From the IMG/VR virus record IMGVR_UViG_3300032284_001265, positions 1 through 20,864 of that record: 20,864 nucleotides of DNA; one strand, given 5' to 3'. The position numbers and the translations under genes are program-made. This document shows positions 789-20,222 of the stretch, one piece after another (the first letter of the stretch is position 1; the number at the start of each line of letters is the position of its first letter). Source of the DNA: a virus. The notes beneath the pieces are model-generated. The model made no database searches, had not been told where the DNA came from, and was given only the letters and a program-made list of their open reading frames with translations.

Positions 789-1014
789 TGTAGGGACGTG
801 GATTCTTGCCTAAGTAAGGCTTGCGTTCACGGAATTTTTCTCCGTTTTTTCGATATTGCCAATCTCGATACTCCTTAGATTTATACAAATCTGCAGGGTT
901 ATAAGGTAGAAGTTTAATTCTGCAATGGTCTAACCATGCTTCTAGATCTTCAAAGATCTTCTTAACTTCTGGTTTCATGTAAAGAGTTTTTTGGATATAG
1001 GCAGGAATTGCCAT
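769..1014 (-). CDS. Small conserved-type phage protein of unknown function (81 aa)
   Basis: The 81-residue product is charged and rich in Lys, Arg, Tyr and aromatic residues (e.g. 'DLEAWLDHC', 'YRDWQYRKNGEKF'), with a basic, proline-containing C-terminal tail. It has no signal peptide or membrane segment. The start is supported by AAGGA eight bases before ATG. It lies 17 bases after the QueD-like gene and overlaps the start of the glycosyltransferase gene, so it is part of the same transcription unit. The basic tail suggests nucleic-acid or protein binding, but this is inference only. I recall similar short proteins beside queD-like genes in T4-like cyanophages, though I cannot verify this here. 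No function is assigned. Confidence 0.7.
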   Translation of the reverse strand: MAIPAYIQKTLYMKPEVKKIFEDLEAWLDHCRIKLLPYNPADLYKSKEYRDWQYRKNGEKFRERKPYLGKNPRPYNERISS

Positions 1015-1031
1015 TTTATATTTCCTTGTAA

Positions 1032-1954: not shown

Positions 1955-1955
1955 A

Positions 1956-3518: not shown

Positions 3519-3550
3519 CTGTGCTCAATATAGTTGTTATTTTTAATTGT

Positions 3551-4288: not shown

Positions 4289-4310
4289 ATTAATTTCCTT
4301 TTGTTAAGTA

Positions 4311-4317
4311 TATTTAG
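4311..4317 (-). promoter_or_regulatory. Candidate late promoter (CTAAATA) upstream of sliding clamp
   Basis: The minus strand reads ACCTAAATATACTT about 25 bases upstream of the clamp start codon. The core resembles the T4 late -10 element TATAAATA. It is one of several such motifs that sit in gene junctions of this window. No -35 element is expected for this class. Confidence 0.4.
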
Positions 4318-4343
4318 GTTTTTGGTTAAAGTCAACAATATTT

Positions 4344-7013: not shown

Positions 7014-7082
7014 TAATTTTCTCCTTACCGTTTATGGCCGGCATACCTTCTTTGTAGCAACTTATGGCTTGCTGTACCTTTC

Positions 7083-7382
7083 TCAAAAATATTTAGCTAA
7101 CATTCTAATAAGACCAACAGAATCTATACTAACTAACAAGATATAGTTAGCCAACATGCCAAATGATTTCCTAGTATAACTAGCCCAAGCGTACATAGCA
7201 CAACCAGAGATCCAAATGGGATAAAGGACAAGAAGCGGAGGGTTGGGTACAGTGAGCGCCATCGTAATGCTACAGCCAATGCTGATAGCCCAAGCCAATA
7301 ACTCGATGCAAAAACGAAAGGAGTTAGATCTAAAGTCATCTCGGATCCATTCAAGTGTAGGTTTAAAAAAAGTATCTATCAT
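7083..7382 (-). CDS. Small multi-pass membrane protein (99 aa)
   Basis: The 99-residue protein has a charged amphipathic N-terminus ('FKPTLEWIRDDFRSNSFR') followed by three hydrophobic stretches, about residues 25-45, 49-68 and 77-95, consistent with three inner-membrane helices. The last part, 'SFGMLANYILLVSIDSVGL', recalls the final helices of PnuC-like transporters, but the protein is far too short to be a complete transporter. I recall similar short proteins next to DNA polymerase in T4-like marine phages. No Shine-Dalgarno sequence precedes the ATG, and a promoter-like sequence ends only a few bases before it. An overlapping 73-residue frame inside it (7133-7354) looks spurious. Function is unknown. 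Confidence 0.65.
   Translation of the reverse strand: MIDTFFKPTLEWIRDDFRSNSFRFCIELLAWAISIGCSITMALTVPNPPLLVLYPIWISGCAMYAWASYTRKSFGMLANYILLVSIDSVGLIRMLAKYF
7090..7096 (-). promoter_or_regulatory. Candidate late promoter (AGCTAAATA) upstream of DNA polymerase
   Basis: CTAAATA, preceded by AG, lies at the 3' end of the membrane-protein gene, about 77 bases before the polymerase start. The same nine-base string AGCTAAATA occurs again upstream of the 118-residue gene near 15.45 kb. It resembles the T4 late -10 element but could be chance in AT-rich coding DNA. Confidence 0.3.
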
Positions 7383-7417
7383 TCAACTATGATAGCATAA
7401 ACAAAATTATAAAGCAA
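7376..7417 (-). promoter_or_regulatory. Putative promoter with inverted repeat over the start codon of the 99-aa gene
   Basis: On the minus strand TTGCTT (7417-7412), a 17-base spacer and TATCAT (7394-7389) form a weak sigma70-type promoter. A perfect inverted repeat CTATCAT-N6-ATGATAG (7395-7376) covers the -10 and the ATG start codon at 7382. Transcription would begin at or next to the ATG, which would explain why no ribosome-binding site is seen. The repeat could be an operator. Confidence 0.4.
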
Positions 7418-7426
7418 GTTATTTTG

Positions 7427-7434
7427 AATAAATA
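7427..7434 (+). promoter_or_regulatory. Candidate late promoter (GAATAAATA) for the plus-strand nucleotidyltransferase gene
   Basis: AATAAATA differs at one base from the T4 late element TATAAATA, and the nine-base string GAATAAATA recurs upstream of the virion-type gene at 15879. With normal late spacing, transcription would begin at about 7440, at the ATG (7441). The message would be almost leaderless, in keeping with the lack of a visible Shine-Dalgarno sequence. Confidence 0.45.
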
Positions 7435-7440
7435 TTTCTT

Positions 7441-8502
7441 ATGCGAATATACGAACTTATATCTGAAGGCGGTTGGACCACTGGAGATAATCCGGGCATA
7501 AAGGCCAAAATGGTCAAGCAAGGAATCGCTTCTGTTAATACTTTTTTAAAAGATTTTAATCCTTGGTTAAAACAACAAGGACAGGGTCCGGTCAAAGCAG
7601 GCCATCCTACAGGATCTGCGGCCTATCACGAATTAGACGATCCAGAAAATACTATCTATGGTGATATGGATTTTCAGGTAATAATTCCAGATTTGCCAGA
7701 ATACGATAATTTAACCAGCGGGCAGGTCCAAGGACGTTGGGGCGCATTGATTGATAAGTTTATACAAAGTTCGAATCTATCTTACATTGATAAAGCAGAA
7801 AGTAAAGGTAGTCAGCCAATGTTTATTTTACCAGACGGTAGTAAATTACAAGTTGACATAATGCCTCATCCGGAAAAAACTGCCGAATGGGGACGTTTCC
7901 GTGCTACAGGCGAACATGGGTTAAAAGGTCTTCTAAATGGTAATATTTTTGCTACTATGAGTGAAATGATTCCGGTTAATTTACAGCATAAAGGCATTCA
8001 GTATAAATCTGTAAATGGCAAAAAAGTAAATTACGGTAAAACACTTAAAGGTTATGATCTGCATACAGTTGGCACAAATATTAAAACATGGATACTAGAT
8101 ATATTCATGCACGAAGCACATGAACTAGGAATAAAAAATCCCAAAATTGATCCTTTACTTAAAGCTAATCCTGGTGTAGATGTTGACAATGTTAATGTTG
8201 AACGATTAGTAAATGGTATTAAAGGATTTGCACGTAGTTGTGATTTAAACAATATGTTTACTCAAGGTGATTTAGCTGGTTATTTGTCTGGAGAAGATTT
8301 CTTGCAAAAGTTTGTACATAACTATGTAACTAAATCACAGCATGCTATCAGTGCGCCTAAGCGTGATAAGGCCAGCACAGCCGCAAGCCAAGCTCGTGCT
8401 GTTAAAGATAGGGAAGCATTAAGTAAAGGTCTTGCCTATGTCCAGAAACTATTTTCTGGAGAAGTATCGGGAAAACGATATAAAGATTATTCAAGTCAAT
8501 AA
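7441..8502 (+). CDS. Pol-beta-superfamily nucleotidyltransferase with capsid-targeting-like N-terminus
   Basis: This is the only plus-strand gene of the window, with a 353-residue product. 'PTGSAAYH' (Gly58-Ser59), 'IYGDMDFQVIIP' (Asp75, Asp77) and 'SKLQVDIMPH' (Asp139) form the GS...DxD...D pattern of pol-beta-type nucleotidyltransferases. Helical regions follow, with a basic tail (approximately 310-353). The same pattern occurs in the first domain of the 1410-residue protein (GDID 135-138, LQVDLEF), so the two look like distant paralogues. The N-terminus 'MRIYELISEGGW' resembles T4 internal-protein targeting peptides, with a possible cut after Glu9 (ISE). It may therefore be packaged and injected. 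The substrate (tRNA, RNA end, nucleotide or protein) is unknown. A bidirectional terminator follows at once. Confidence 0.7.
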   Translation: MRIYELISEGGWTTGDNPGIKAKMVKQGIASVNTFLKDFNPWLKQQGQGPVKAGHPTGSAAYHELDDPENTIYGDMDFQVIIPDLPEYDNLTSGQVQGRWGALIDKFIQSSNLSYIDKAESKGSQPMFILPDGSKLQVDIMPHPEKTAEWGRFRATGEHGLKGLLNGNIFATMSEMIPVNLQHKGIQYKSVNGKKVNYGKTLKGYDLHTVGTNIKTWILDIFMHEAHELGIKNPKIDPLLKANPGVDVDNVNVERLVNGIKGFARSCDLNNMFTQGDLAGYLSGEDFLQKFVHNYVTKSQHAISAPKRDKASTAASQARAVKDREALSKGLAYVQKLFSGEVSGKRYKDYSSQ

Positions 8503-8503
8503 A

Positions 8504-8523
8504 AAACCCGCATAAGCGGGTTT
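8504..8523. terminator. Bidirectional intrinsic terminator between convergent genes
   Basis: AAACCCGC-ATAA-GCGGGTTT is a perfect eight-base-pair stem with a four-base loop, just after the plus-strand stop codon (8502) and before the convergent gene's stop (8544). On the minus strand the stem is followed by a run of six T; on the plus strand the T-tract is shorter (TTTCTT). It can end both converging transcripts. Confidence 0.9.
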
Positions 8524-8543
8524 CTTATAGTTACACTTTAATA

Positions 8544-8816
8544 TTAAAGCGTAATGCCCAAAGCGCGAGCCTTGTAACCAAGAGCAATGATTTCACGTGT
8601 TGGACGATCTAAACGATACTCAGTTACATGAACGCCATTGCCAGCCTTGCGTGACTTAGCATAGATAGCGTGACCATTGTAACGAAGACGACTTGCTTCA
8701 GCGGCCAAGTTCTTGATACCAAAACGCTTTTCAGCTTGTGCTTGAGTAACAATTTCACCTTGTTTAAATGCTTCAAGCAATTTATATGTCTTAGTTTCCT
8801 TGCTGATCTGTTTCAT
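8544..8816 (-). CDS. Small winged-helix-like phage regulator (90 aa)
   Basis: The 90-residue basic protein starts 'MKQISKETKTYKLLEAFKQG' and continues 'IVTQAQAEKRFGIKNLAAEASRLR', which reads as a helix-turn-helix with recognition helix around residues 33-46. It is followed by a beta-wing-like 'HAIYAKSRKAGNGVHVTEYRL' and a C-terminal helix. I recall similar proteins in T4-like cyanophages near capsid genes. It should bind DNA, but the target is unknown. A strong GAGG-type ribosome site precedes the ATG, and the gene has its own sigma70-type promoter at 8863-8891. It ends at the bidirectional terminator, so it is the last gene of its unit. Regulatory function is inferred from fold only. Confidence 0.7.
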   Translation of the reverse strand: MKQISKETKTYKLLEAFKQGEIVTQAQAEKRFGIKNLAAEASRLRYNGHAIYAKSRKAGNGVHVTEYRLDRPTREIIALGYKARALGITL

Positions 8817-8862
8817 ATTATTTTTCCTCTTTGTGTTAGACTGTAATTAAACAGTTAAAATT

Positions 8863-8891
8863 ATTATATATATCTATAATACCTATTGCAA
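8863..8891 (-). promoter_or_regulatory. Sigma70-type promoter of the winged-helix gene
   Basis: TTGCAA (8891-8886), a 17-base spacer and a perfect TATAAT (8868-8863) face the 90-residue gene, giving a leader of about 40 bases. The -10 forms the right arm of a perfect inverted repeat TATTATA-GATATA-TATAATA (8881-8862), a possible operator, although such repeats arise easily in AT-rich DNA. Confidence 0.65.
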
Positions 8892-8909
8892 CCTATTTGG
8901 CAAAATTAG

Positions 8910-9179
8910 TTATTCTGTACGGCGATTTGCATGTCCAGAAATATCTACAATAGTTTCTAAGTCGTCGAATTCTCGGAATACCTGATCCCACTGATCTTTT
9001 TGTGCGATTCGAATTGCCTTTTTAATTACAGATGGTTTTACCTCTAGTTCTTCTGCAACAGCTTTGATTGTTTCGTTTAATCCCTCGGTAAGGTCTTGAA
9101 TCTCTTGCATAACAGTCATACCTTCTGATACAATCTGTTTAATTTTAGCCTGCTCTGGCGCGCCAAATGCTTTACTCAT
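8910..9179 (-). CDS. dsbA: DsbA-like double-stranded DNA-binding protein, late-transcription accessory
   Basis: The 89-residue protein has the same length as T4 DsbA and a matching layout: a long N-terminal helix ('AKIKQIVSEGMTVMQEIQDL'), then 'LNETIKAVAEELEVKPSVIK', a helix-turn-helix-like part, and an acidic segment 'FREFDDLETIVD'. In T4, DsbA binds DNA near late promoters and enhances late transcription. AGGAG seven bases before ATG supports the start. The promoter region just upstream is unusual, with the ribosome site inside a long inverted repeat (see 9185-9230). The winged-helix gene follows after 93 bases with its own promoter. Family assignment rests on resemblance in length and pattern rather than on a diagnostic motif. 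Confidence 0.7.
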   Translation of the reverse strand: MSKAFGAPEQAKIKQIVSEGMTVMQEIQDLTEGLNETIKAVAEELEVKPSVIKKAIRIAQKDQWDQVFREFDDLETIVDISGHANRRTE

Positions 9180-9184
9180 AAAAA

Positions 9185-9230
9185 ATCTCCTGTATTAAAT
9201 GAGTATATATACTCGTACAGGAGATGTCAA
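9185..9230 (-). promoter_or_regulatory. dsbA promoter nested in a ribosome-site-sequestering inverted repeat
   Basis: TTGACA (9230-9225), a 17-base spacer and TATACT (9207-9202) make a near-consensus promoter. The spacer contains ATCTCCTGTA (9225-9216), the exact complement of TACAGGAGAT (9194-9185), which holds the AGGAG ribosome site. Between the arms lies a perfect palindrome GAGTATATATACTC (9214-9201) covering the -10. A transcript starting at the promoter (about 9195) lacks the first arm, so its ribosome site is free; a read-through transcript would fold it away. Confidence 0.75.
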
Positions 9231-9242
9231 GTGTTTTTTAGA

Positions 9243-9929
9243 TTATTTGTCTACGTCTTGTTCGCCGTGTTCTAAGAAATCAAAAACAGTTTCTATATAA
9301 TCAGATGCAACTGCAATTTTGGATTGTACCCAAGAATCTAGTTGTGTATCAGAATCCATTCGGGTCGCAAGATTAATTGCTAATTTTGCCGCAGTAATTA
9401 ATTGTGTACGGGCCATTGCACCTTCAGAATCTGTACCTTCACCTATGTGTTTATCTATACCTCGTGAATTAATACCACCTTTTTTGCGTACTTTTGCTAG
9501 TTCATCAATACCATGACGAATTTGTTCAATGTTCATTGCTAATTCATCAAAGTTTCGGGCAATGCTTTCCCAACCTAATGCGCTGTCTGTTTGTGCTCTA
9601 TCTGCTAGGTCTTTTAATTGACCAGCGGCACGTAACATGCGAGTTTTTAATTTAGCAGGATTGACACCTTGATGGCCATATACTGTAGGATTCATTGGTT
9701 CTGCTGGATCCATTTCGATAGGTGCTTCTGAAATATGTTTAATATATGTTGGATTTTCTTCTAATTTGTTTTTTAATAAATTTTCAAGATGTTCTGAATA
9801 CTCGTGCTTTTGTGCTTTGTGTTTGACCTCGCCTTGTTTAGCGGCCTTCTTCTTATCCTTGTGAGCACCTGCACCACTAGTAGTCATATTCTTAGCAACA
9901 AAGTTACGAGGTTTAGCTGTATACTTCAT
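9243..9929 (-). CDS. Phage protein with WVQSKI-type C-terminal helix module (228 aa), possibly packaged
   Basis: The frame is open further upstream to 10034, but AGGAG eight bases before the ATG at 9929 (MKYTAKPRNFVAK) sets the start; the longer version would overlap a 59-residue gene. The first 45 residues are very basic and rich in Ala, Gly and Lys. A helical middle region ('LRAAGQLKDLADRAQ'-like, about 90-160) follows. The C-terminus 'LDSWVQSKIAVASDYIETV' (197-215) is a module I recall at the ends of several proteins in T4-like cyanophages. 'IKHISEAPIE' (63-72) contains an ISE site like that of the targeting peptides elsewhere in this window. Function is unknown. The basic region suggests DNA contact or condensation inside the head, which is inference. 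Confidence 0.7.
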   Translation of the reverse strand: MKYTAKPRNFVAKNMTTSGAGAHKDKKKAAKQGEVKHKAQKHEYSEHLENLLKNKLEENPTYIKHISEAPIEMDPAEPMNPTVYGHQGVNPAKLKTRMLRAAGQLKDLADRAQTDSALGWESIARNFDELAMNIEQIRHGIDELAKVRKKGGINSRGIDKHIGEGTDSEGAMARTQLITAAKLAINLATRMDSDTQLDSWVQSKIAVASDYIETVFDFLEHGEQDVDK

Positions 9930-9966
9930 TGCTTTAACTCCTTTTTTATGTTCGTTTATCATGATA

Positions 9967-10146
9967 TTATCTTTTAATAACTTTGATTTTTTTCTTAGGT
10001 TTATTGTTTGAAGTTTCGCCATATGTACCTCCAAATAGGCTACCTACTTCACTACGTTTTTTTCCGCCTGGATTTGCTACTGTAGCAATAGCACCAGATC
10101 CTGTAGCACCAGCAGATGCAGATTCTAAAAGTTCACTTATTTTCAT
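9967..10146 (-). CDS. Small basic protein with capsid-targeting-like N-terminus (59 aa)
   Basis: The 59-residue product begins 'MKISELLESASAGATGSG' and ends with the basic 'NNKPKKKIKVIKR'. Its ATG overlaps the upstream stop codon by four bases (ATGA), and it ends 38 bases before the next start, so it fits the operon exactly. The N-terminus has the hydrophobic/acidic pattern of T4 capsid-targeting peptides, with a possible prohead-protease cut after Glu8 (LLE). The rest is low in secondary structure and rich in Gly, Ala and Lys. I recall short proteins with an 'ESASAGAT...VANP' signature in T4-like cyanophages but cannot verify this. A packaged DNA-associated peptide is a reasonable guess. Confidence 0.7.
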   Translation of the reverse strand: MKISELLESASAGATGSGAIATVANPGGKKRSEVGSLFGGTYGETSNNKPKKKIKVIKR

Positions 10147-10529
10147 TTCTTTTTCTTCTTTTTGGTAGGCTTATTATTCCAATTGCTTACAGGACTAACC
10201 TTATTTGTTCCTGCACTTTCTTCACTACCGTCTGAACTTAGTCGAACTTTAGGAGTTCCTACAAGACCTTGTGCGGCATCTAGAATGTCTCTTTCTGCTT
10301 GAGTATACCCAATAGTAACCATCTTAAGACCTGTAGGACCGGCAACATCCATTTTTTGATGAGGCATACCAGCTAGGGCAACACCAAATCTATATGCAAG
10401 ATATCCAGAACTGTTATCAAGTTCGGGCCATGCGTGAGCACCAGGTAAAGCATCCATATGACCAGGTGGCATATTAGATGCTCCTGCCATATCTTTTGCT
10501 TCGTTAACAATAAACTCTTTTGCTCTCAT
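10143..10529 (-). CDS. Phage protein with capsid-targeting-like N-terminus and polylysine tail (128 aa)
   Basis: The frame opens at 10550, but the ATG at 10529 (MRAKEFIVNEAKDMAGA) is preceded by AAAGGA five bases upstream and overlaps the previous stop as ATGA, so I use it. The N-terminus resembles T4 internal-protein targeting peptides; the possible cut after Glu10 has Val rather than Ile/Leu at P3. The core includes 'LPGAHAWPELDNSSGYLAYR' followed by 'FGVALAGMP'. This pattern I recall from T4-like cyanophage proteins that carry the same leader. The protein ends in a run of lysines (about 121-128), which suits binding to packaged DNA. The function is unknown. Confidence 0.75.
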   Translation of the reverse strand: MRAKEFIVNEAKDMAGASNMPPGHMDALPGAHAWPELDNSSGYLAYRFGVALAGMPHQKMDVAGPTGLKMVTIGYTQAERDILDAAQGLVGTPKVRLSSDGSEESAGTNKVSPVSNWNNKPTKKKKKK

Positions 10530-10801
10530 TTTAATCCTTTGCCAAACCATAGTTCAAACCAGGCAGGTGTTCCTGGTTTAACACCAAATTCCTTCATATA
10601 TTTGGCTTTTTCATTATTAGCATTATTTACCATATTTCTTTTAGCTGTCTCGACATTGTATTCTGCTAATCTTGCCTGAGCACCTAGACCTCCTAAGTAA
10701 CTAGCAATTTTTAATTCATGTATAGGATCATCAGGTGGTAGCGCACAATCATCGGGGCTATCTTGACTTATATTTTCTTTAGTAATATAAAATTGTTTCA
10801 T
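10526..10801 (-). CDS. Uncharacterised small phage protein (91 aa)
   Basis: The 91-residue protein has an acidic N-terminal third ('SQDSPDDCALPPDDPIHE'), a central helical part ('LKIASYLGGLGAQARLAEYN') and an aromatic C-terminus 'GTPAWFELWFGKGLK'. It has no signal peptide or membrane segment. Start and stop each share four bases (ATGA) with the neighbouring genes, a strong sign of translational coupling with the large three-domain protein upstream and the 128-residue protein downstream. It lacks the targeting-type leader of these neighbours. A role as a partner or chaperone of the large protein is possible, but nothing in the sequence proves it. Confidence 0.75.
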   Translation of the reverse strand: MKQFYITKENISQDSPDDCALPPDDPIHELKIASYLGGLGAQARLAEYNVETAKRNMVNNANNEKAKYMKEFGVKPGTPAWFELWFGKGLK

Positions 10802-13800
10802 TTGTTTTCTAATAATTTGATAGCTTTGGCAATTTCATTTTCCCATGCTTCTCCGACCTTAACACAATTATTAACACGAGTACCGCCTTTCATTTTGGTC
10901 CCTTGTTTGCGATAACCTTTCCAGCATTTGGGATCTAAGCGTTGGTCTTCTCCAAATTTTTTCATACCTAATTGTGTATTACCTGGGTGTATTTTAGTAC
11001 TGATGGCAGTATCAAAACTAGCTTTGCCGAATTCACCATGATCTTCATTTTCGATACTTTCGCTTCCGCCTACGAGATCTCCTTGACGTGCTGGTCTTTT
11101 CATATTGCCTTTTAATTGACCGGCAGGTCCTAATTTGTTTTTCTTAGATCCTGCAAATGCGCTTTTTGGTAGCATGGCTTCTCCAATACTCTCTCCACCT
11201 GCATATCCTTTCCAGCGTTGACCTGTTTCTCTAGCATGTTGTTCCATACCAACACCAGCCATACTTTCACCTGCTGTTTTAAATTTATTAATTGCTTTTT
11301 CTAATGCGGCAAAGCGTTTATTCATAGGCAACTTATTAATCATATTTCTAATTTCGCCTTGATGCTTAGAAGGGATATGATCTTTAATTGCTTTATTAAT
11401 TAAAATGTCTGCTTGATTATTTTGAGTACCTATTGTATTATTCTTTGGAACTTTTGGACCAGATGGTTCGTCATAATCATCGCTATTTGCTTCTAACTCT
11501 ATCTTCTCAAGGTATGCTTCATAATCTGCTTGACGTTTTTCCCATTGTCCTGCAAATGTGTATAATTCTTGATTTCTAAGTTTTTGTGCAATATTTTTTA
11601 ATATAGGAGGTAATTCGCTAGATAATTGGGTAAAAGTTTTATGTCCACTACGACCTCTACCCTCACTGTTTAAGAAATCCATTAACTGCCCTGATCCTCT
11701 ACCTGCTTGTTTGGTTAGATCGTACAATTCTTTCTGTAACTTATTAAAATAAAAATCATTGTACCAGCGACTACCCTGACCGGCGGCCATCATGCCAAAA
11801 CCTTTTAGGTCTCCTCGATTGTCAACCCATTTCTTAGCCATTGATTTTAATACTTCATAAACTTGTGCAATGTGTTTACCGTTATCTACAATGCTTGATA
11901 ATGTTGAATCTAAACTTGTACTTTCACCTAAATCTTTGTCTTCTGCATCTTGCATAGTAGAATTCCAACCACGTCCTCTGCCGCTCATATCAAGATCTTT
12001 GTTATTTCCACTAATTGGACTTAGTCCGGTATGCTCGCCGCCTGCACCTAAATCTTCGTTGGTGTGTTGGTCTGTAAAAGTGTTTAACTTCATATCTTGT
12101 TGTCCTTTTGGTGTAGGTTTAGGTTGTTGTATTCCCATACCTTGTCTAGTTAAATCCATTAGATGTTCGATCCATTTTTGACCTAACTTTTTAACATCAA
12201 ATCCTTGCTCCCATACAGATAATTGTTGCTGTGGTGTAGCGTTTGGGTCTTGTAAAATGTTACGTAATTTAGTAAAGCTCATACCTGTACCTCGAGGTGT
12301 AACCTCTAAGCTCACTTTAACATGTTCGTAACCTTGAAATTTATTAACTGCCTTCATTAATGCATTTGCAATAGGCATTTTAGCTTGGTCTTCTCCAACC
12401 ATAATAATGATATTATCATATCGAGGTGGTTTACCTGGTAGCGGATTAATTAACTCATGTTTTATTTTTTGCATAAGCGTTCCGCCTTCGTGTGTAACAG
12501 TACTGATATTATTAGCATATTCTGGGTACATTTTATGCCATGTTTGTACTTTTACACTTGGAGGAATAGGATCGTCTTTACCCTGGGCATTGCCTATAAA
12601 CAAATAAGGATCGCCGCCTACTTGCTGTGCTTTTTTAATTGTATAATCAAATAATTGTTCGTGACCGATATGACCGACAAAACTACCAATAGCAACTACG
12701 GCTGTTTTATTAGAATTATTTCTTGGGCGTTCTGTTCTAGCATTGGCTTTAGCATCATTTTTAGCCTGTATAACATTTCTTTGTTCTTGGCTAGTAACTT
12801 TAATAGGACCAAGACGACTGTTGATAACAATACCTTCGTAATCTTTGCCTAATAGATCTTTACCAACAATATTAGGATCTTCGATGATCGCTTTTTCTAA
12901 AGCAATCTTAATTGGTTGTAATTTTTCTTCTACTTCTCGTTTTAATTGTAGACTAGCTCGATCACGCTTACCTGCTGTAGCAGTTACAATTTGTTTTAAT
13001 TCTTCTATATTTTCTAAAGGATTAATAATTTCTGTAACATCTAATGCATCATTCTGTGTTAGACTGTTATCAATAAACATAACAGTTCCTGCCTTACCAA
13101 CGCTTAATAATTTTTTAATATATGCGTTAGAATCTGGCAAATCTTCTCCAGTATCTGCATTAACTACCCGGAAAGGAACTAACGCTAGTTGTACACCTTT
13201 GGGAAGTTTATCATAGGCAATACCTACAAATTTTAATTTTCCTTCTGGTGTTTCTGTAGCAAAAGGCAAATATAGTACTTCACATGTGACCTGTTTATTA
13301 ATTAAAAATTCAGGACCTAATTTACTATCGACTAATTTAACAGCGTCCATCATTTCATAAAATAAATCATCAAATGTTTTGGCACGACCTAATATATCAG
13401 GATCTGTTGTACCTTTTTCTTGATGATATTTTAAGAATCCTGCTTGGTAACGAGGTTCGGTACGACTTGTACCCATAAAAGGTTTACCTTCTGCATTTTT
13501 ACCAAAACGTCCACCAAATCCGTCTACTTTAACATTTAACGGAATATTTTGTAATTTAAAACGTCCGTTACCATCATGCAGTTCATCTATAAGATCTAGA
13601 AAGTCAGGAGCCTTTAAATCATGTAGGTGCGGCATTCCTTTACGTAACTGTGCTTTAACAGCAGGAGGTTCATCCTCTCTTAGGATAGATTCTTGTACAT
13701 TACCTTTTTTAGAATTAAAATCTTCTTCATACTGTTTTGCCATTTGGAGGGCCTGTTTACGAAGATTTTTCATGCCTGTTTTATCTAATACATAATCAAC

Positions 13801-15030
13801 TGCTGTCATTTTAATTTTAAAATCTTCAGTAGGATTATTTGCTTCAATCATCTGTGCGCCTGGACCAAAATTAATTTTTAAAAATTCTTGAACAGCAACA
13901 CCTTGTTGTTCAGGAGTAAAATATTTTTTCATTAATTCAACAGTACCCACTAAGCCTGCCATCATCTTAGTTTCATTACCTTCTGGTGAAACACCGAAAA
14001 ATTGTTCAAATTGTTGATCCATATCTTTGATATAATCACTTTCGGCAGGAGTTAATGGCACCATAACTGGTATACTGTTAATTTCGCTTGGAATATTTTC
14101 TTCAGGATTAGGAGCGCGGTATTTGGCTCTGACACCGCCCCCGCCTACACTAGCAACAGCAAAACTAAAATTGGCATCATGAAATGGTGGGGGAGGATTT
14201 TCAAAATCTGTAACTTGTTCTTTTCCGTCATCGCCACCAAATATAGCTATACTACGGGCCTTACCTCTACCAGCTAATTTTGCAATATACTTACTTGATG
14301 GTGCTACCTTAGCAATCGATCTGTATAGCCATTGTCTAAATACACCTTTCATACCTGCTTCTAAATCTGCCCAGTCGCTACCGTGACTTATTTGAGCCCA
14401 TTCGGTGGGTACTTCAAAACCTCGATCATCTGAAGTATAATCAACAAATTCCAAATCGACTTGTAGTGTAATAGGTGGTTCGTGTAATTGCCATAATGCT
14501 AACCATTGATCACTACCCTTTTTAGTTCCTAATAATGTAGCACTACCTATGTTTTTACCGATATTTTTATGAACAAATTCTTCTATTTGTGGTTCTAGTC
14601 TACGATCGATCTGCGTATCTATGTCGCCGACTTTTTTCTTTACACGTTGAAAATCTTTATCAGTTACACCTATTTCTTTAGGGTTAGCATCTGATACAGG
14701 TTGTTTAGGATCAAAGTTTGGATTTGGTTGTTTTAAAAACATAAACCATTTACTAGATCCACTAATAAATGTATGAACTTCTTTTTCAATAAGTTCTGGG
14801 CTCCAGATAGGTCTACCGTATTGTCTAGTAAACGTATTATTAATATCTACCAATAGTTGTTTAACCGCAGGTTGCATAACTCTACGATTTTCCGAATCAA
14901 TTTTGCCTGCGGTATGCTGTCCGGGTATTCCTGTCCATCCTACTGTCGGTGTTCCGTCTGCTGTGTGACTAGCAAGATTTCCACCTTCTGTAATATATAA
15001 TTTTTTAATAAAAAATTCATTCAAGAGCAT
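10798..15030 (-). CDS. Giant multidomain nucleotidyltransferase: pol-beta-like, ligase-like and HIGH-type domains, probably packaged
   Basis: The 1410-residue protein has, in order: a targeting-type leader 'MLLNEFFIKKLYITEGGN' (possible cut after Glu15); a pol-beta-like domain with 'SGSSKW' (90-95), 'GDIDTQ' (135-140) and 'LQVDLEF' (189-195); a ligase/capping-type adenylyltransferase domain with 'VKVDGFGGR' (Lys501), 'CEVLY' (Glu584), 'YEGIVIN' (Glu732) and 'GPIKV' (Lys744); and a cytidylyltransferase-like domain with 'GSFVGHIGHEQLF' (HIGH 787-790) and 'GMSFTKLR' (916-923). A low-complexity and helical C-terminal third ends with 'KQGTKMKGGTRVNNCVKVGE'. (I/L)xE sites lie at domain borders: LRE452, LGE1036 and IGE1284. 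Roles in RNA or nucleotide repair after injection are plausible. No substrate is proven. Confidence 0.82.
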   Translation of the reverse strand: MLLNEFFIKKLYITEGGNLASHTADGTPTVGWTGIPGQHTAGKIDSENRRVMQPAVKQLLVDINNTFTRQYGRPIWSPELIEKEVHTFISGSSKWFMFLKQPNPNFDPKQPVSDANPKEIGVTDKDFQRVKKKVGDIDTQIDRRLEPQIEEFVHKNIGKNIGSATLLGTKKGSDQWLALWQLHEPPITLQVDLEFVDYTSDDRGFEVPTEWAQISHGSDWADLEAGMKGVFRQWLYRSIAKVAPSSKYIAKLAGRGKARSIAIFGGDDGKEQVTDFENPPPPFHDANFSFAVASVGGGGVRAKYRAPNPEENIPSEINSIPVMVPLTPAESDYIKDMDQQFEQFFGVSPEGNETKMMAGLVGTVELMKKYFTPEQQGVAVQEFLKINFGPGAQMIEANNPTEDFKIKMTAVDYVLDKTGMKNLRKQALQMAKQYEEDFNSKKGNVQESILREDEPPAVKAQLRKGMPHLHDLKAPDFLDLIDELHDGNGRFKLQNIPLNVKVDGFGGRFGKNAEGKPFMGTSRTEPRYQAGFLKYHQEKGTTDPDILGRAKTFDDLFYEMMDAVKLVDSKLGPEFLINKQVTCEVLYLPFATETPEGKLKFVGIAYDKLPKGVQLALVPFRVVNADTGEDLPDSNAYIKKLLSVGKAGTVMFIDNSLTQNDALDVTEIINPLENIEELKQIVTATAGKRDRASLQLKREVEEKLQPIKIALEKAIIEDPNIVGKDLLGKDYEGIVINSRLGPIKVTSQEQRNVIQAKNDAKANARTERPRNNSNKTAVVAIGSFVGHIGHEQLFDYTIKKAQQVGGDPYLFIGNAQGKDDPIPPSVKVQTWHKMYPEYANNISTVTHEGGTLMQKIKHELINPLPGKPPRYDNIIIMVGEDQAKMPIANALMKAVNKFQGYEHVKVSLEVTPRGTGMSFTKLRNILQDPNATPQQQLSVWEQGFDVKKLGQKWIEHLMDLTRQGMGIQQPKPTPKGQQDMKLNTFTDQHTNEDLGAGGEHTGLSPISGNNKDLDMSGRGRGWNSTMQDAEDKDLGESTSLDSTLSSIVDNGKHIAQVYEVLKSMAKKWVDNRGDLKGFGMMAAGQGSRWYNDFYFNKLQKELYDLTKQAGRGSGQLMDFLNSEGRGRSGHKTFTQLSSELPPILKNIAQKLRNQELYTFAGQWEKRQADYEAYLEKIELEANSDDYDEPSGPKVPKNNTIGTQNNQADILINKAIKDHIPSKHQGEIRNMINKLPMNKRFAALEKAINKFKTAGESMAGVGMEQHARETGQRWKGYAGGESIGEAMLPKSAFAGSKKNKLGPAGQLKGNMKRPARQGDLVGGSESIENEDHGEFGKASFDTAISTKIHPGNTQLGMKKFGEDQRLDPKCWKGYRKQGTKMKGGTRVNNCVKVGEAWENEIAKAIKLLENK

Positions 15031-15031
15031 T

Positions 15032-15388
15032 TTACATTACCTTATACTCGTCTTTAATTATATCTTCATGAAAATGTTTAGCAAATCGTTGACATAATTT
15101 TTTTCTAACTTCTTTATTAAAAAGATCTTTAGGGTCGTCTATTAGTTCTCGTTCCTTATAAAACTTCATACAACCATGGTTTACTAATGGTAACCATACT
15201 TGTGGATCATGCTCTTTAGATTTTTCAATTTTAATTTTTTTTGCGGCAGGAAGAAAATATTTCTTATGTAGGTCGTCTTGATTTAAAATGTATTCAAATA
15301 CATCATCCATCAACTGTTCTTCTTTGAATTTATGTTTATCTGTGCCATTAAGGCCTTGTGCTTTACCAAAAAATTCGTTTAATAGCAT
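15032..15388 (-). CDS. Uncharacterised phage protein sharing MLLNEFF leader (118 aa)
   Basis: The 118-residue protein is charged and helical, with 'LMDDVFEYILNQDDLHKKYFLPA' early and 'EVRKKLCQRFAKHFHEDI' late. Its first seven residues, MLLNEFF, are identical to those of the large protein encoded one base pair downstream. It has no clear (I/L)xE site after the leader, unlike its neighbours, apart from LNE within the leader. I recall a family of such 'DDxFxYIxNxDDLHxKYFxPA' proteins of unknown function in T4-like cyanophages. A late-type motif (AGCTAAATA) lies about 60 bases upstream, so it probably opens the packaged-protein operon. Confidence 0.75.
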   Translation of the reverse strand: MLLNEFFGKAQGLNGTDKHKFKEEQLMDDVFEYILNQDDLHKKYFLPAAKKIKIEKSKEHDPQVWLPLVNHGCMKFYKERELIDDPKDLFNKEVRKKLCQRFAKHFHEDIIKDEYKVM

Positions 15389-15445
15389 AATAGTTCCATT
15401 AGTCGATACTGGAGCCGCAGTAATACTACAACTCTGTTAATTGAG

Positions 15446-15452
15446 TATTTAG
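15446..15452 (-). promoter_or_regulatory. Candidate late promoter (AGCTAAATA) for the packaged-protein operon
   Basis: CTAAATA, preceded by AG, lies in the 77-base gap between the 137-residue and the 118-residue genes. It resembles the T4 late -10 element and faces the operon that runs from 15388 to 9243. It repeats a nine-base string found upstream of the polymerase gene. Confidence 0.5.
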
Positions 15453-15465
15453 CTGGATTTATCTA

Positions 15466-15879
15466 TTAGTGATTATAGCTGATTGAGTGCATTGAACCCT
15501 GTGAAAAGGTCACTACACCACGAACCCACACGAACAGGCCTGTAAAATTAGCGTATTGTGTGTTATTTGAGCCAGGATAAGGATAAGATATGTCGGTTCC
15601 TGCAATATCAAACCAATCGGTTTGTGTACTACTAACATCGATAGGGTTAGTTGCAAGTGTTCCTTGCATCTTAATTTCACCTATAAAGTTTTGCGTTACT
15701 GTATAAGCAACTGTATGTAATCCGTCACTTGATCCGAAATACCCGTCACCTTTTTCTTGATTACTAATAAAAGTCAAATTACCAGTGGTCATTTGTGGGT
15801 ATACCAATGCAACTGTTGTTGCTGTTGTGCTGGTGTTAACAGATTGTACGAATGTTAATTGTGTGCTTAAACTTGCCAT
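15466..15879 (-). CDS. Probable beta-rich virion protein (137 aa)
   Basis: The 137-residue protein is rich in Thr, Ser, Gly, Asn and aromatics, with alternating strand-like segments and almost no charge, typical of tail, neck or fibre components. The C-terminus 'NFTGLFVWVRGVVTFSQGSM' resembles the ends of small structural proteins in T4-like marine phages, a comparison I cannot verify. It has no signal peptide. A GGGA ribosome site lies nine bases before the ATG, and a late-type promoter GAATAAATA lies about 22 bases upstream, which fits a virion gene. The exact part of the particle is unknown. Confidence 0.7.
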   Translation of the reverse strand: MASLSTQLTFVQSVNTSTTATTVALVYPQMTTGNLTFISNQEKGDGYFGSSDGLHTVAYTVTQNFIGEIKMQGTLATNPIDVSSTQTDWFDIAGTDISYPYPGSNNTQYANFTGLFVWVRGVVTFSQGSMHSISYNH

Positions 15880-15900
15880 GTCTTATAGTCCCGAATACAG

Positions 15901-15909
15901 TATTTATTC
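15901..15909 (-). promoter_or_regulatory. Candidate late promoter (GAATAAATA) for the virion-type gene
   Basis: The minus strand reads GAATAAATACTG, one base from the T4 late element TATAAATA, overlapping the stop of the upstream gene. A start about six bases downstream would leave a 15-base leader containing the GGGA ribosome site. The same nine-base string precedes the plus-strand nucleotidyltransferase gene. Confidence 0.55.
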
Positions 15910-16608
15910 TTTAGCAACGGAACTTCTAAGTATGTAATTATCAACTTTGCGAATATTTCCAGTAAGGAACATTCCTACTAACGATAGCATAGGACCATTA
16001 TTTACATACAAAAAGGGTTCGTTCGCCCATTTTCTTTCATTGCGTAACCATCTAGATGTTTCTTTGGATACATGTATTTGCTCTTGCTTATATCTACTTA
16101 ACCAGTTAATTAATGTTTGTCTTTTATCTGAGCTAATGTTTGTTTTTAAACTAATTTTATATTCGTATTTTCCGTGAGGCAATTGGTCAACTAATAGTTT
16201 TTTTGTTCCGTTTACCTTCATAAAATCTAAATCAGCCTGACTAGCAGGTTCTGCTATTTCTCTAATCCATTCTTTTGTTTCAGCCTGAATCTCTTGATAT
16301 AATGCATAATCGGTAGTATAAAAATCTACGTATGACATTTCTGCCCTAGTTTTTATATCTTTTTGATCTTCATTAATTACATACTTATTAACCTTATTGC
16401 TGTATCTTTTAAGATCATCTTTTTGTTCTTGGCTAAAACGAGTTCTTTTCCACAGGTAATTTCTAGCTTCTGTCTGTTTCGGATCATTGCAAAACTTTTC
16501 TACAAAGTCATATCCGCAATGCACCAAAAGGCTAGCACCTTTTGAAAAAGTGCTAACCTTATATGGATATTTTCCATAAAATAATTTATTGATTTTCTTG
16601 ATCAACAT
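15904..16608 (-). CDS. Uncharacterised basic phage protein (234 aa)
   Basis: The 234-residue protein begins 'MLIKKINKLFYGKYPYKVST' and is rich in Lys, Tyr and Trp. Helical charged stretches follow ('DKRQTLINWLSRYKQEQIHV', 'SRWLRNERKWANEPFLYVNN'), and it has a more hydrophobic end 'GPMLSLVGMFLTGNIRKV'. No known domain is recognised. The ATG lies 23 bases inside the end of the clpA-like gene, with AAGG nine bases before it, so expression is coupled to the unfoldase. A strong terminator-like hairpin lies within its codons 17-27 (16528-16560). The tail segment could contact a membrane but is too short and polar for a sure helix. Function is unknown. Confidence 0.72.
   Translation of the reverse strand: MLIKKINKLFYGKYPYKVSTFSKGASLLVHCGYDFVEKFCNDPKQTEARNYLWKRTRFSQEQKDDLKRYSNKVNKYVINEDQKDIKTRAEMSYVDFYTTDYALYQEIQAETKEWIREIAEPASQADLDFMKVNGTKKLLVDQLPHGKYEYKISLKTNISSDKRQTLINWLSRYKQEQIHVSKETSRWLRNERKWANEPFLYVNNGPMLSLVGMFLTGNIRKVDNYILRSSVAKE
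16528..16560 (-). terminator. Intragenic terminator-like hairpin early in the 234-aa gene
   Basis: The RNA of the minus strand has an 11-base stem AAGGUUAGCAC / GUGCUAGCCUU with one G-U pair and an 11-base loop, in which UUU/AAA can extend pairing. It is followed by UUGG, so the U-tract is only four long. It lies 48-80 bases after the start codon and just after the clpA-like gene. It could attenuate read-through or be a by-product of coding. Confidence 0.4.
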
Positions 16609-18859
16609 CTTCTTCTACCTTAGTTTTATCAACCGGTAATACCTCGATGAATTTTAATTTTAATTTACCTTCTTCTGCTGTAACTTCTACAATACCACCG
16701 TTTACTAAATTACCAAACAGAATTTCTTTACTTAGTGGCTTTTTAATCATGTCATCGATTGTTCGTTGTAATGGTCGAGCTCCCATTTTACGATTAAAGC
16801 CCTTCTTAATCAACAGCTCACCTGCATCACCGTCAAGTTTAACATGAACATTTTTATCTTTCAACAAAGAATTAAGCTCGTCGATAAATTTCTTAACAAT
16901 CTTAGCCATTGTATTATGATCAAGTTTTCCAAACTTAATAATACCATCTAATCGATTACGGAATTCTGGTTTAAAAAATGCGTTAATTGCTTCATCGGTT
17001 TCGTCACCTCTTTCAAGAGTACCAAAGCCAACAGCATTACGATCATTATCTGCAGATCCTAAGTTACTTGTCATAATAATAATAGCATTGCGGCCGTCTG
17101 CTTTTTTACCGTTGCTTCCTGTAATAAACCCATTATCCATTAGTCCTAACAATACATGACTTACGGAAGGATGAGCTTTTTCAATCTCATCAAACAATAA
17201 AATACCGTTTGGATGTTCTTGCAGTTTAGTAATTAGTTGTCCTGCATTATCTTCAAATCCTACATAACCAGGAGGGGCTCCGATAAATTTTGCAACACTA
17301 TGTTGTTCTTGATATTCGCTCATATCAAATCTAATTAATTCTACACCCATACCTTCTGCAAGTACCTTAGCGGTTTCAGTTTTGCCAACACCAGTTGGGC
17401 CTGTAAACAAAAAATTACCTACTGGTTTATTAATACTTTTGAGACCTGCTTGAGCGATAAAAATTTTATCTAATAAAATATCAATAGCCTGTTCCTGACC
17501 ATACACCTTACTTCGCATATTTTTGTCAAGATCTTTTAAGTTTTTATTTTCTTTGGCCGCCACTTGTTCTAAAGGCAAGTTAGTTGTTTTTGCTACTTCA
17601 AATACAATTTCATTATGGTCAACAATTCCACCTTCTTCATCTCTAACTTTAAAACGAGCACAGGCACAATCAATTAGATCGATTGCTTTATCTGGTAATC
17701 TTTTATCTGTCATATATTTGATAGAATATTTTACTGAATCAATAACCGCTTGATTAGTAATTTTAACACCGTGATGTTTTTCGTAATACTTGCGCAGTCC
17801 TTTAATAATTTTAATAGCGGTCGCTTCTGATGGTTCGTCAACAGTGATACGTTGGAAACGACGCATCAAAGCACGATCCTTTTCAAAGTGTTTACGATAT
17901 TCTTCCCATGTAGTTGACGCAATAACTTTAATTGTGCCTTTACTTAATACTGGTTTTAACATATTTGCCATATCGTTAGAGCCGCCACTTACTGCACCGG
18001 CGCCACTCATCATATGAGCTTCATCGATAAACAAAATGCAATTCTTTTTACGTTCAAGTGCGGTTAATACCATTTTTAAACGTTCTTCAAAATCTCCTCG
18101 ATATTTGCTGCCGGCAAGCATGGCGCTGATATCTAAATTATATACAGTACAATCTTTGATAAATTTAGGAACATTACCTTCAATGATTCTACGTGCAAGT
18201 CCTTCTGCTATGGCAGTTTTACCTACGCCAGGATCACCGACTAACATAACATTAGCCTTATGTCTACGTGCCAATACTAATGTAATATCTTCAATTTCTT
18301 TTTCTCGTCCAATCACAGGATCGATTTGTTTGCTCTTAGCCTTGGCGGTTAGATTTGTACAATACTGTACAATTAATCGTTCAAGTTGTCTAACATTAAC
18401 TTCTTTACTTTCGCCTTCTTCTGAACTAGCTTCGTTATTAACAAATTCAATAAATTTATCTTTGTCAATCTTAGCTTTACGCATGAAGAAATTAGCAAAA
18501 CTTTTCTTTTCTGAAAATAAACTAATAAAACAATCTATAGGTTCAATGATATTTCTACCATTAAACAATACCTGCGTAAATGCACGGTTTAACATGCGTT
18601 CTACATTATTTGTTTTTTTAGGTCTTTGATCAGGTTTGTTCGTTTTAATATCCTGAAGATCATCTTGAATAAATTTTTCAAGATTCTTTTTTAGATCTTC
18701 AACTTCTGCACCAAAGTCTGTTAACAGTTGACCAAATTTTTGATCCGTAACTAGGCTATATAAGAAATGCTCGAGTGTAATATACTCGTGCTGATTTTTG
18801 GCGGCAAGTAAAACAGCCCGTTCAAAAATACCTTCTAAATCGCTATTTGGTTCTAACAT
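16586..18859 (-). CDS. clpA: ClpA-like AAA+ unfoldase
   Basis: The 757-residue protein is the usual length of ClpA (758 in E. coli). It has a Clp N-domain (1-140), a first AAA+ module with Walker A 'GDPGVGKT' (208-215), pore loop 'KYRG' (252-255) and Walker B 'ILFIDEAH' (275-282), then a second with 'GPTGVGKT' (487-494), pore loop 'GYVG' (531-534), 'ILLFDEIE' (553-560) and sensor 'GARPLQR' (693-699). There is no coiled-coil M domain, so it is not ClpB or ClpC. 'NAVGFGT' (609-614) sits where ClpA has IGL, the ClpP-docking tripeptide, and reads VGF. No clpP gene is in the window, so it may use host ClpP or act alone. Start and upstream stop share one base (TAATG). Confidence 0.95.
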   Translation of the reverse strand: MLEPNSDLEGIFERAVLLAAKNQHEYITLEHFLYSLVTDQKFGQLLTDFGAEVEDLKKNLEKFIQDDLQDIKTNKPDQRPKKTNNVERMLNRAFTQVLFNGRNIIEPIDCFISLFSEKKSFANFFMRKAKIDKDKFIEFVNNEASSEEGESKEVNVRQLERLIVQYCTNLTAKAKSKQIDPVIGREKEIEDITLVLARRHKANVMLVGDPGVGKTAIAEGLARRIIEGNVPKFIKDCTVYNLDISAMLAGSKYRGDFEERLKMVLTALERKKNCILFIDEAHMMSGAGAVSGGSNDMANMLKPVLSKGTIKVIASTTWEEYRKHFEKDRALMRRFQRITVDEPSEATAIKIIKGLRKYYEKHHGVKITNQAVIDSVKYSIKYMTDKRLPDKAIDLIDCACARFKVRDEEGGIVDHNEIVFEVAKTTNLPLEQVAAKENKNLKDLDKNMRSKVYGQEQAIDILLDKIFIAQAGLKSINKPVGNFLFTGPTGVGKTETAKVLAEGMGVELIRFDMSEYQEQHSVAKFIGAPPGYVGFEDNAGQLITKLQEHPNGILLFDEIEKAHPSVSHVLLGLMDNGFITGSNGKKADGRNAIIIMTSNLGSADNDRNAVGFGTLERGDETDEAINAFFKPEFRNRLDGIIKFGKLDHNTMAKIVKKFIDELNSLLKDKNVHVKLDGDAGELLIKKGFNRKMGARPLQRTIDDMIKKPLSKEILFGNLVNGGIVEVTAEEGKLKLKFIEVLPVDKTKVEEDVDQENQ

Positions 18860-19365
18860 TATATACCTTTCCTTTTATTTGGTTTTGATTTTTTAACAGC
18901 CAACGCCCATTTAAGCGGGCTTACACGATCTTGAAATACAATACCTTCTAAATGATCGTGTTCGTGTAAGAATACTTTACAATCATATCCTTCAAATTCT
19001 GCTGTTTCGGTTTCCCCGTCTGAATTTTGATATTCTACCTTTATTGCAGATGGTCTTTTTATATTAATAAAAATTCCTGGAAAACTTAAACAACCTTCTT
19101 CTAAATCTAATACATCACTTGTACTAGCTATTATCTTTGGATTAAAATACGCTTTTGCCATTAAGAAATTTGTTTTATCTCCTAATGTAAAAACTCTAGC
19201 ACGAATACCTACTTGGTTTGCGGCTAGGCCGATTCCCTTGTTGGCAAACATAGTGGCCAACATTTCTCTTTCGAGTTCTTTTGGATCCATAACAGGATTC
19301 TCAAAATCAAAGTCGGGCATTCGTTCTCTTAAAATTGGATCTGGAAATTTTACAATTTGTAACAT
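18859..19365 (-). CDS. def: Peptide deformylase
   Basis: The 168-residue enzyme has all three motifs: 'GIGLAANQ' (44-51), 'EGCLS' (90-94, metal ligand Cys92) and 'HEHDH' (134-138, metal ligands His134 and His138, catalytic Glu135). It removes the formyl group from new proteins. The length is that of bacterial deformylases, and unlike many phage versions the C-terminal part is kept, with a basic tail 'KKSKPNKRKGI'. GGAG from the end of the dnaJ-like gene lies 11 bases before ATG. The gene is eight bases after dnaJ and overlaps clpA by one base, so the three are one operon. Phage deformylases are known from marine T4-like phages; their role is thought to be processing of fast-made phage or photosystem proteins. 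Confidence 0.96.
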   Translation of the reverse strand: MLQIVKFPDPILRERMPDFDFENPVMDPKELEREMLATMFANKGIGLAANQVGIRARVFTLGDKTNFLMAKAYFNPKIIASTSDVLDLEEGCLSFPGIFINIKRPSAIKVEYQNSDGETETAEFEGYDCKVFLHEHDHLEGIVFQDRVSPLKWALAVKKSKPNKRKGI

Positions 19366-19373
19366 GTAGATAT

Positions 19374-20222
19374 TTACTCCGAGAGTCGTCTTACTAAATC
19401 TTTTTGTTCTTCTGTTAAATTAGTAGGAATTATTATTTTTAATTTTAACATCATGTTACCTTTAAATCTATAATCATTTTGATTAGGCATGCCATAACCG
19501 TGCAGTCTTAAAGTTGCACCCGGTTGAATACCAGGCGGAACAGTTGCAAGTACCTGACGCCTATCTATGCAATCTACTGTTATATTTTTTCCAAGTATAG
19601 CATCCCACACTGAAATGTCTACTTCTCGGACTAGGTCATCACCTTCTCTTTTAAATAATATATGAGGTTGTACATTTACAGTTAAATGTATATCACCTGG
19701 AGGTAGGTGCTTGTGCGTTTGATCTCCAACTCCGCCAACTCGTAAAGTTACGCCGTCATTAATACCTGGAGGAATTTTAATTTCAATAGTTCTAAGTTCT
19801 CCGCTTGGTAAAGTAAAACTAGCAACTACATCTTTACCTTTATAAGCATCTTCTAATGTTATATGAGTGTGCAATCCTATTGTTTGATTTCTTTGTTGAG
19901 GTCGACGTTGTTGAAATGCTCCACCAAATGGACCAAAAGGACTTCCACCAAACATTTGTGAAAGTATCTCATCCATACCAGGAGGCACACCATTAAATCC
20001 TCCTCCCATGTTTCCAAATTGTGGTTGAGGATTATCATATTGAGATCTTTTTTGAGGATCGCTAAGTGTAGCGTAGGCTTCTTGAATTTTTTTAAATTCT
20101 GTATCATCACCACCTGTTCGGTCAGGATGGTGCTTCATGGCCAATTTTCGATAGGCCTTTTTTATGTCATCATCTGATGCGTTTTTAGCAACGCCTAATG
20201 TTTGATAATAATCCACATGCAT
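19374..20222 (-). CDS. DnaJ/CbpA-like co-chaperone without zinc finger
   Basis: The 282-residue protein has a J domain at the N-terminus ('[20 protein letters not shown]', HPD motif 32-34), a Gly/Phe-rich linker (about 65-115) and two C-terminal substrate-binding domains ('[18 protein letters not shown]', '[19 protein letters not shown]'). The CxxCxGxG zinc repeats of DnaJ are absent, so it is class II, like CbpA. It should stimulate a host DnaK, as the HPD motif is intact. No dnaK or grpE gene is in the window. The start ATG at 20222 follows a strong sigma70-type promoter and has only a weak GGA ribosome site. It leads the dnaJ-def-clpA cassette. Confidence 0.95.

Follow-up and report, generated by a model that had tools for sequence, protein, structure and literature searches.

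A predicted packaged phage protein combines three nucleotidyltransferase folds that recur together as separate genes in cultured phages

Why would a single phage protein carry three different nucleotidyl-transfer folds, and would such a protein travel in the virion? The questions arise from a 1410-residue ORF (P0001) on the minus strand, positions 15030 to 10798, of a 20.9 kb stretch of virus DNA (IMG/VR record IMGVR_UViG_3300032284_001265, positions 1 to 20,864; hereafter the window). By inspection, T4-type genes of the window include ORFs resembling the gp43 polymerase, the clamp, and ClpA. A preliminary description, which placed the ORF at the same boundaries (10798-15030), reported motifs of a pol-beta-like domain, a ligase-type domain, and a HIGH-type cytidylyltransferase domain in this order behind a capsid-targeting-type leader, and proposed that the protein is packaged. 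A family search with the whole chain yields weak links alone, to the cytidyltransferase family phrog_3041 at residues 755-985 and to several PHROGs of unknown function, and the Pfam match of the whole chain to FAD_syn is sub-threshold. Searches of PDB sequences with P0001 and with profiles of its first two domains returned nothing useful, and PADLOC found no match to a defense system.

The chain nevertheless resolves into domains with recognizable active sites. Domain D1 (residues 16-452; 13675..14985, minus strand) has the motifs GSS (91-93), GDID (135-138), and QVD (190-192) of the pol-beta superfamily, and this signature (GS, GDID, QxDxE) is invariant in an alignment of 63 sequences. Its AlphaFold (AF2) model (pLDDT 94.5, pTM 0.90) has DNA polymerases beta, mu, and lambda and AsfvPolX as best Foldseek matches in the PDB (probabilities of 0.9-0.98 to pol beta/mu/X). 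Its VIA matches are modest, with a Z of about 8 (maximum 8.3) and many rows tied. Domain D2 (residues 453-768; 12727..13674, minus strand) is a ligase-type covalent nucleotidyltransferase with motifs KVDG (501-504), E584, EGIV (732-735), and K744; the K, D, and G of KxDG, the glutamate of motif III/IIIa, EG of motif IV, and lysine of motif V are invariant in 65 sequences. Foldseek matches of D2 (probabilities of 0.8-1.0) are led by RNA and tRNA ligases, with archaeal RNA ligase 5d1o, 6n0t, a tRNA ligase, and DNA ligases, AsfvLIG among them. In sequence and model alike, little follows motif V before D2 passes straight into D3, and the model that covers both has a pLDDT of 90.9. Because D3 filled the VIA list for D2-D3, the lack of other ligase families in the VIA lists is not evidence.

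Domain D3 (residues 769-985; 12076..12726, minus strand) belongs to the HIGH superfamily. Its motifs are GHIGH (786-790) and SFTKLR (918-923), and GHxGH and the arginine of the downstream S/T-x-x-x-R are invariant in 66 sequences. D3 accounts for the match to phrog_3041 (2.3e-14), and FAD_syn matches 63 of 66 members. VIA places it near PPAT (Z of 13.4) and NMNAT (Z of about 12), and Foldseek near FAD synthetase, PPAT, and NadD. Structure models and fold searches thus put each set of motifs in the expected fold, so that the KVDG and HIGH segments do sit in nucleotidyltransferase folds. The invariant catalytic residues and the Foldseek and VIA matches uphold the earlier proposal of three different folds, and with core residues invariant in 63, 65, and 66 relatives, respectively, the ordered occurrence of the motifs in one chain is far from chance. 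We did not adopt the name cytidylyltransferase for D3, since its nearest folds, those of PPAT, NMNAT, and FAD synthetase, favor an adenylyltransferase. An assignment to the HIGH type is not an assignment of cytidylyl transfer.

The arrangement is conserved. Relatives were gathered in four scans of viral contigs (loci L001-L006 and L009-L229) and their ORFs were then scanned with HMMs. In ∼85 distinct phage proteins, 64 of these at <85% identity, D1, D2, and D3 are fused in the same order. These proteins range from ∼910 to 1919 aa because their N- and C-terminal modules vary. Exceptions among single genes are few: one has D1 only (L025), one has D1 with a C-module (L064), and in one locus the ligase and HIGH genes are separate (L005). 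In four relatives (L004, L119, L120, and L180), the leader and D1 are separated by a zincin-like domain of metallopeptidase type, recognized by inspection, with [IL]xE/GGN after it; an HExxH region is visible in L004. One related phage contig of 221 kb (L242; G001 1-20000) has a cluster of 41 tRNA genes, and another of 166 kb (G006) has none.

A clue to packaging of the chain comes from its leader. Internal proteins of T4 have short N-terminal targeting sequences that are removed by gp21, which cuts after L/I-x-E (PMC9026906). The window protein starts with MLLNEFFIKKLYITE (residues 1-15; 14986..15030, minus strand), a leader of capsid-targeting type ending in YITE/GGN, with a predicted gp21-type cut after E15 and before GGN (16-18). 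[LIV]xE/G[GS]N lies directly before D1 in each of the 68 relatives whose ATG start is resolved, with GGN in 67 and leaders of 11-18 aa, and the site still directly precedes D1 in the nine that carry an extra N-terminal domain or extension. In shuffled leaders, the site arises by chance at a rate of 12-27%. Another 16 relatives had appeared to lack the site, but in 14 of them, allowing a GTG or TTG start reveals the same leader upstream, and for the other two (L036 and L049) the stretch examined ended short of the leader region.

Sites within the chain follow the domain boundaries. The D1/D2 linker is poorly conserved and hypervariable in length (16-155 residues), yet an [LIVM]xE site is present in 86 of 86 sequences, against an average of 20.9 in shuffles, and the strict motif in 76 of 86 (average of 10.4 and maximum of 20 in shuffles). 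These counts are of sequences rather than of independent events, and the variability of the linkers argues against mere inheritance of the sites. In P0001, the junction has two predicted sites, VQE447/S and LRE452/D (13675..13692, minus strand). By contrast, the motif occurs in none of the 86 D2/D3 linkers. It is also rarer inside D1 and D2 than in shuffles, which inside D3 is so for the strict motif only.

Downstream lie modules beyond those in the preliminary description. D4 (residues 1037-1262; 11245..11922, minus strand) is a conserved domain of unknown function with a predicted cut, LGE1036/S, exactly before it, and an xxE-type site immediately precedes D4 in 12 of 12 proteins that have it. 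A C-terminal module (residues 1285-1394; 10849..11178, minus strand) lies between predicted cuts SIGE1284/A and VGE1394/A, and a site follows most C-modules. It matches several PHROGs that have no assigned function. Within it is a Cys-pair module, CWKGYxxxGTKxKGGxxVxNC (residues 1366-1394; 10849-10935, minus strand), common to 53-54 distinct ORFs in relatives. The Cys-pair module appears to be portable, recurring across a wide range of proteins in these phages and in S-PM2, often beside LxE sites.

A candidate processing protease is present in many of these phages. Both Peptidase_S77 (gp21, PF03420) and gp23 are found in seven of 11 long relatives and both are missing in the other four. In both related genomes, the gp22-like scaffold is the protein richest in the motif (10 sites versus 1.7-2.0 expected), supporting the motif for this clade. 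In whole-genome counts, only this scaffold is clearly enriched; the full G006 chain is not (8 sites versus 5.0 expected), so the argument for processing rests on where sites are located and not on their total. With a site in the D1/D2 linker and none in D2/D3, a packaged precursor is probably cut into D1, D2-D3, and C-terminal modules. The capsid-targeting-type leader of the preliminary description is therefore borne out across relatives. Its suggestion of a packaged 1410-residue protein stands in part, because the conserved sites predict release of D1 and delivery of the uncut chain is probably not what occurs.

Neighboring ORFs share features of the fused gene. Directly upstream is a 118-aa ORF (15032..15388, minus strand) with its own MLLNEFFG leader, and its relatives, judged by inspection, form the N-terminal part of D1 fusions in L021, L024, L060, and L184, each ending in [LI]ME/GGN. 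A 353-aa ORF (7441..8502, plus strand) is a second leader-bearing candidate nucleotidyltransferase (MRIYELISE/GGW; GS..YGDMD..QVD) with motifs kept in eight relatives. It has no Pfam, PHROG, NCBIfam, or PADLOC match and hhalign gave no support for homology between D1 and its family, but going by its motifs it is possibly another packaged pol-beta-type nucleotidyltransferase. A small ORF (10143-10550, minus strand) has an internal leader-like start, MRAKEFIVNE/A, similar to that of the ORF adjoining the fused gene in G006 (56052), and the similarity suggests a cluster of packaged proteins. A 520-aa ORF (1956-3518, minus strand) with a GDSGGYQ motif looks by eye like a tRNA-guanine transglycosylase or DpdA.

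Regulatory signals are less distinct. The octamer TATAAATA, the T4 consensus late promoter, is absent from the window and from upstream of most relatives. It has 27 copies over all loci (2.57 Mb) where shuffles of the window expect ∼3.7 per 20.9 kb, and hence seems to be avoided outside functional sites. Upstream of the operon, a TAAATACT element (15444..15451, minus strand) is a weak candidate for a late promoter; a AATAAATA element is at 15901-15908. ATAAATA is enriched 5' of ORFs in the related 221-kb contig.

The same three enzymes occur together in cultured phages. A search of 50,697 phage records with D1 of phage X1 identified 38 records that correspond, by record names, to 28 distinct phages: 11 of Campylobacter, six of Vibrio, 10 of Stenotrophomonas, and one of Xanthomonas. 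All 28 also have ligase-type and HIGH-type nucleotidyltransferases, in operons, as separate genes, or as a ligase-HIGH fusion, and a HIGH-type query from phage Moby recovered these phages and, in addition, an uncultured jumbo phage. In IBB_35, a single phage, the trio genes are split between two contigs. About 65 kb separates D1 from the ligase-HIGH fusion in CP220, thus linkage alone does not explain the co-occurrence. The ligase partner is of D2 type in the Stenotrophomonas phages and X1, and part of a ligase-HIGH fusion in the Campylobacter and Vibrio phages, where it was recognized by motifs only. In hhalign comparisons of D2 to the latter, motifs IV-V alone aligned, with low probability, and the Vibrio/Campylobacter ligase may therefore be a different branch. 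Isolate homologs of D1, of X-D2, and of the ligase-HIGH fusion correspond to phrog_19290, phrog_12709, and phrog_27149, respectively. D3-type proteins lacking a D1 partner are found in many marine cyanophages.

In X1 and Moby, overlapping genes form an operon in the order D1-X-D2-D3. A third gene (X) beside those of the trio in isolates is seen at L263:5678-6682, L264:5818-6762, L265:11899-12693, and L278:6982-8295; its D...(S/E)xK stretches are PD-(D/E)XK nuclease-like by eye only, and it lacks an informative family match. Que-type genes are also near the trio in X1 and Moby. The L278 contig, binned as Anaerolineae and carrying T4-like phage genes by inspection, links the fused and separate forms. 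Its D1 (FLNE/GGN) and D2 (YLQE/AE) are encoded separately and both have a leader-like start, and its D3 is elsewhere on the contig. In the fused form, the cut site before D2 is L/I/VxE/AE, which the start of D2 in L278 matches, suggesting that the cut in the fused chain is equivalent to the leader cut of a stand-alone D2. D3 of L278 is matched by profiles of both the window family and the isolate family and so ties the two together. Because the trio recurs as separate genes in other phages, it looks like one unstudied pathway.

Starts of D1 in isolates point to its terminal residues. D1 begins with MGGN and has no leader in X1, Moby, IME-SM1, and Va1, whereas in CP220 it begins MKLSELMFILE/GGN. 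Methionine aminopeptidase removes methionine before glycine, and MGGN starts would thus mature to the same GGN end that prohead-protease cleavage is predicted to produce from forms with a leader. As isolates begin with MGGN or E/GGN, the N-terminal GGN of D1 appears to be functional. The lack of a leader in X1, Moby, and Va1 also means that packaging is not essential to function.

We propose that the leader would direct the precursor to the prohead core, where a prohead protease of the gp21 family would remove it to leave D1 with an N-terminal Gly-Gly-Asn. The same protease would separate D1 from D2 and the C-terminal modules from one another, with D2-D3 remaining joined, and the products would leave the head with the DNA at ejection. 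D1, D2, and the HIGH-type adenylyltransferase D3 would then act on nucleic-acid ends in a common pathway, most likely to repair or protect RNA (tRNA) that host defenses have cut, ahead of phage gene expression. Going by sequence, our best guess is an injected kit for processing nucleic-acid ends, probably of RNA or tRNA. We regard the predicted packaging and processing of the fused chain as highly probable; the putative RNA-end substrate falls a little short of even chances, and the explanation as a whole could equally prove right or wrong.

The RNA/tRNA ligases heading the fold matches of D2 favor RNA ends, and a pol-beta nucleotidyltransferase (RlaP) paired with an RNA ligase is an established theme of RNA repair in phages (PMC7824862). 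Packaging of D3 relatives has been reported: by mass spectrometry in virions of S-SCSM1 (PMC9602691), of which the NMNAT gene is a match of the L005 D3 query, and, by annotation, in virions of S-CREM2 and S-SM1, though authors of two of the papers on these three phages note that carry-over in virion preparations is possible. The main text of the Campylobacter phage proteome papers does not name the D1 or fusion proteins. Counted against RNA repair, D1 has no Pfam match and the RlaP family (PF10127) is unmatched at E≤1 in seven relatives, D2 has no Pfam match and RNA_ligase (PF09414) is found in none of seven relatives, the fold matches of D1 are modest, and tRNA genes are uneven, with 41 in one related phage and none in another. 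To our knowledge, a HIGH-type adenylyltransferase is not a usual component of RNA repair.

Other explanations account for parts of these observations. The trio could be a set for modifying host proteins, in which D1 and D3, and possibly D2, transfer nucleotides to host proteins (NMPylation) after delivery like that of T4 Alt. The logic of packaging and processing is the same, as Alt is packaged, cleaved by gp21, and injected, and ADP-ribosylates RNA polymerase (PMC9026906); moreover, protein modification is the predicted role of minimal pol-beta nucleotidyltransferases from mobile elements (PMC5512222). But the fold of D1 is closer to full-size pol X and TUT types than to a minimal nucleotidyltransferase, and its strict co-occurrence with an enzyme of ligase type speaks for nucleic acid as the target, making modification of host proteins unlikely. 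Strict co-occurrence with D1 and D2 is left unexplained if D3 acts as an NMN adenylyltransferase to restore the NAD+ that host defenses deplete, while D1 and D2 have separate roles. The fold of D3 is NMNAT-like, stand-alone D3 of X1 matches NMNAT models at 2e-8, and related cyanophage proteins seen in virions are annotated as NMNAT. However, phages with NadM reportedly never lack NadV (PMC9503650), and a NadV-type phosphoribosyltransferase is found in none of seven long relatives, of which the contigs may be incomplete, while Stenotrophomonas phage Ps15 has the trio in addition to separate NadV and NadR. We consider NAD(H) restoration still less likely than protein modification.

Equally improbable is a DNA repair kit: as the phage genome enters the cell, its gaps or breaks would be filled by a pol-X-like D1 and sealed by the ligase D2. 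Such a kit would have a parallel in PolX and the ligase of African swine fever virus, in keeping with polymerases beta, mu, lambda, and AsfvPolX as top Foldseek matches of D1, DNA ligases including AsfvLIG among those of D2, and a Pfam DNA_ligase_A_M match in only two of seven long relatives. Sequence and model, however, leave no room for the OB domain of a DNA ligase between motif V of D2 and D3, and D3 would have no role. Finally, the leader and xxE motifs could have arisen by chance or serve another use in an ordinary intracellular multi-enzyme fusion, as the leaderless D1 of Vibrio, Xanthomonas, and Stenotrophomonas phages might suggest. We find this very unlikely given a leader site in 68 of 68 relatives versus 12-27% by chance, D1/D2 sites in 86 of 86 versus none of 86 for D2/D3, sites before D4 in 12 of 12, and depletion of sites within D1 and D2. 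Returning to a packaged, processed precursor whose products act on nucleic-acid ends, a more specific version, advanced tentatively, is an undescribed pathway widespread in T4-like phages. The HIGH-type enzyme would make an adenylylated donor, the ligase-type enzyme would transfer or join it, and the pol-beta enzyme, requiring a free Gly-Gly-Asn, would extend or cap the nucleic-acid end; in freshwater phages the trio would be delivered as a polyprotein processed by the prohead protease.

Several described systems share parts of this organization. Like T4 internal head proteins (Alt, IPI-III), the chain has a short N-terminal leader ending in L/I-x-E, a gp21-family protease in related phages, and an enzyme cargo expected to be injected, as for Alt; unlike them, it has three unrelated nucleotidyltransferases per precursor and predicted internal cuts, whereas T4 has one enzyme per gene. 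Polyvalent proteins (PMC5512222), the nearest described class, also combine several disparate enzymatic domains, here three nucleotidyltransferase folds, in one polypeptide predicted to be injected, and the zincin-like domain of four relatives is a further likeness; prohead-protease-type sites predict a processing that sets our chain apart. In the survey that defined them, pol-beta nucleotidyltransferases are restricted to proteins of conjugative elements and the combination of ligase-type and HIGH-type enzymes was not found (Iyer et al. 2017; PMC5512222). RlaP and its ATP-grasp RNA ligase (PMC7824862) are similar in that a pol-beta nucleotidyltransferase is strictly accompanied by a ligase-type one, but D1 does not match PF10127, D2 does not match PF09414, and the trio here always includes a HIGH-type enzyme. 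Cyanophage virion proteins annotated as cytidylyltransferase or NMNAT (T4-GC190; S-SCSM1 ORF91; phrog_3041/phrog_395) are related to D3 and virion-associated by mass spectrometry, but are single enzymes with no fused D1 and are annotated from similarity only. Members of phrog_19290, phrog_12709, and phrog_27149 differ from the fused chain in being separate, mostly leaderless genes, with no earlier link in the literature searched. In keeping with the preliminary description, no defined function of the three-fold combination is described in that literature. The fused chain is probably a variant of packaged, processed cargo of the T4 internal or polyvalent kind, and the joint function of the trio is undescribed in the literature searched.

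These findings connect three functionally uncharacterized phage protein families as a co-inherited trio, and its occurrence in cultivable phages makes the pathway directly testable. The GGN end, predicted to arise by cleavage in some phages and from Met-Gly-Gly-Asn in others, leads us to expect that a free glycine at the N terminus of D1 has a specific role. More broadly, the locations of predicted cuts suggest that T4-like phages may use the head protease to unpack precursors of multi-enzyme cargo at the boundaries of their modules.
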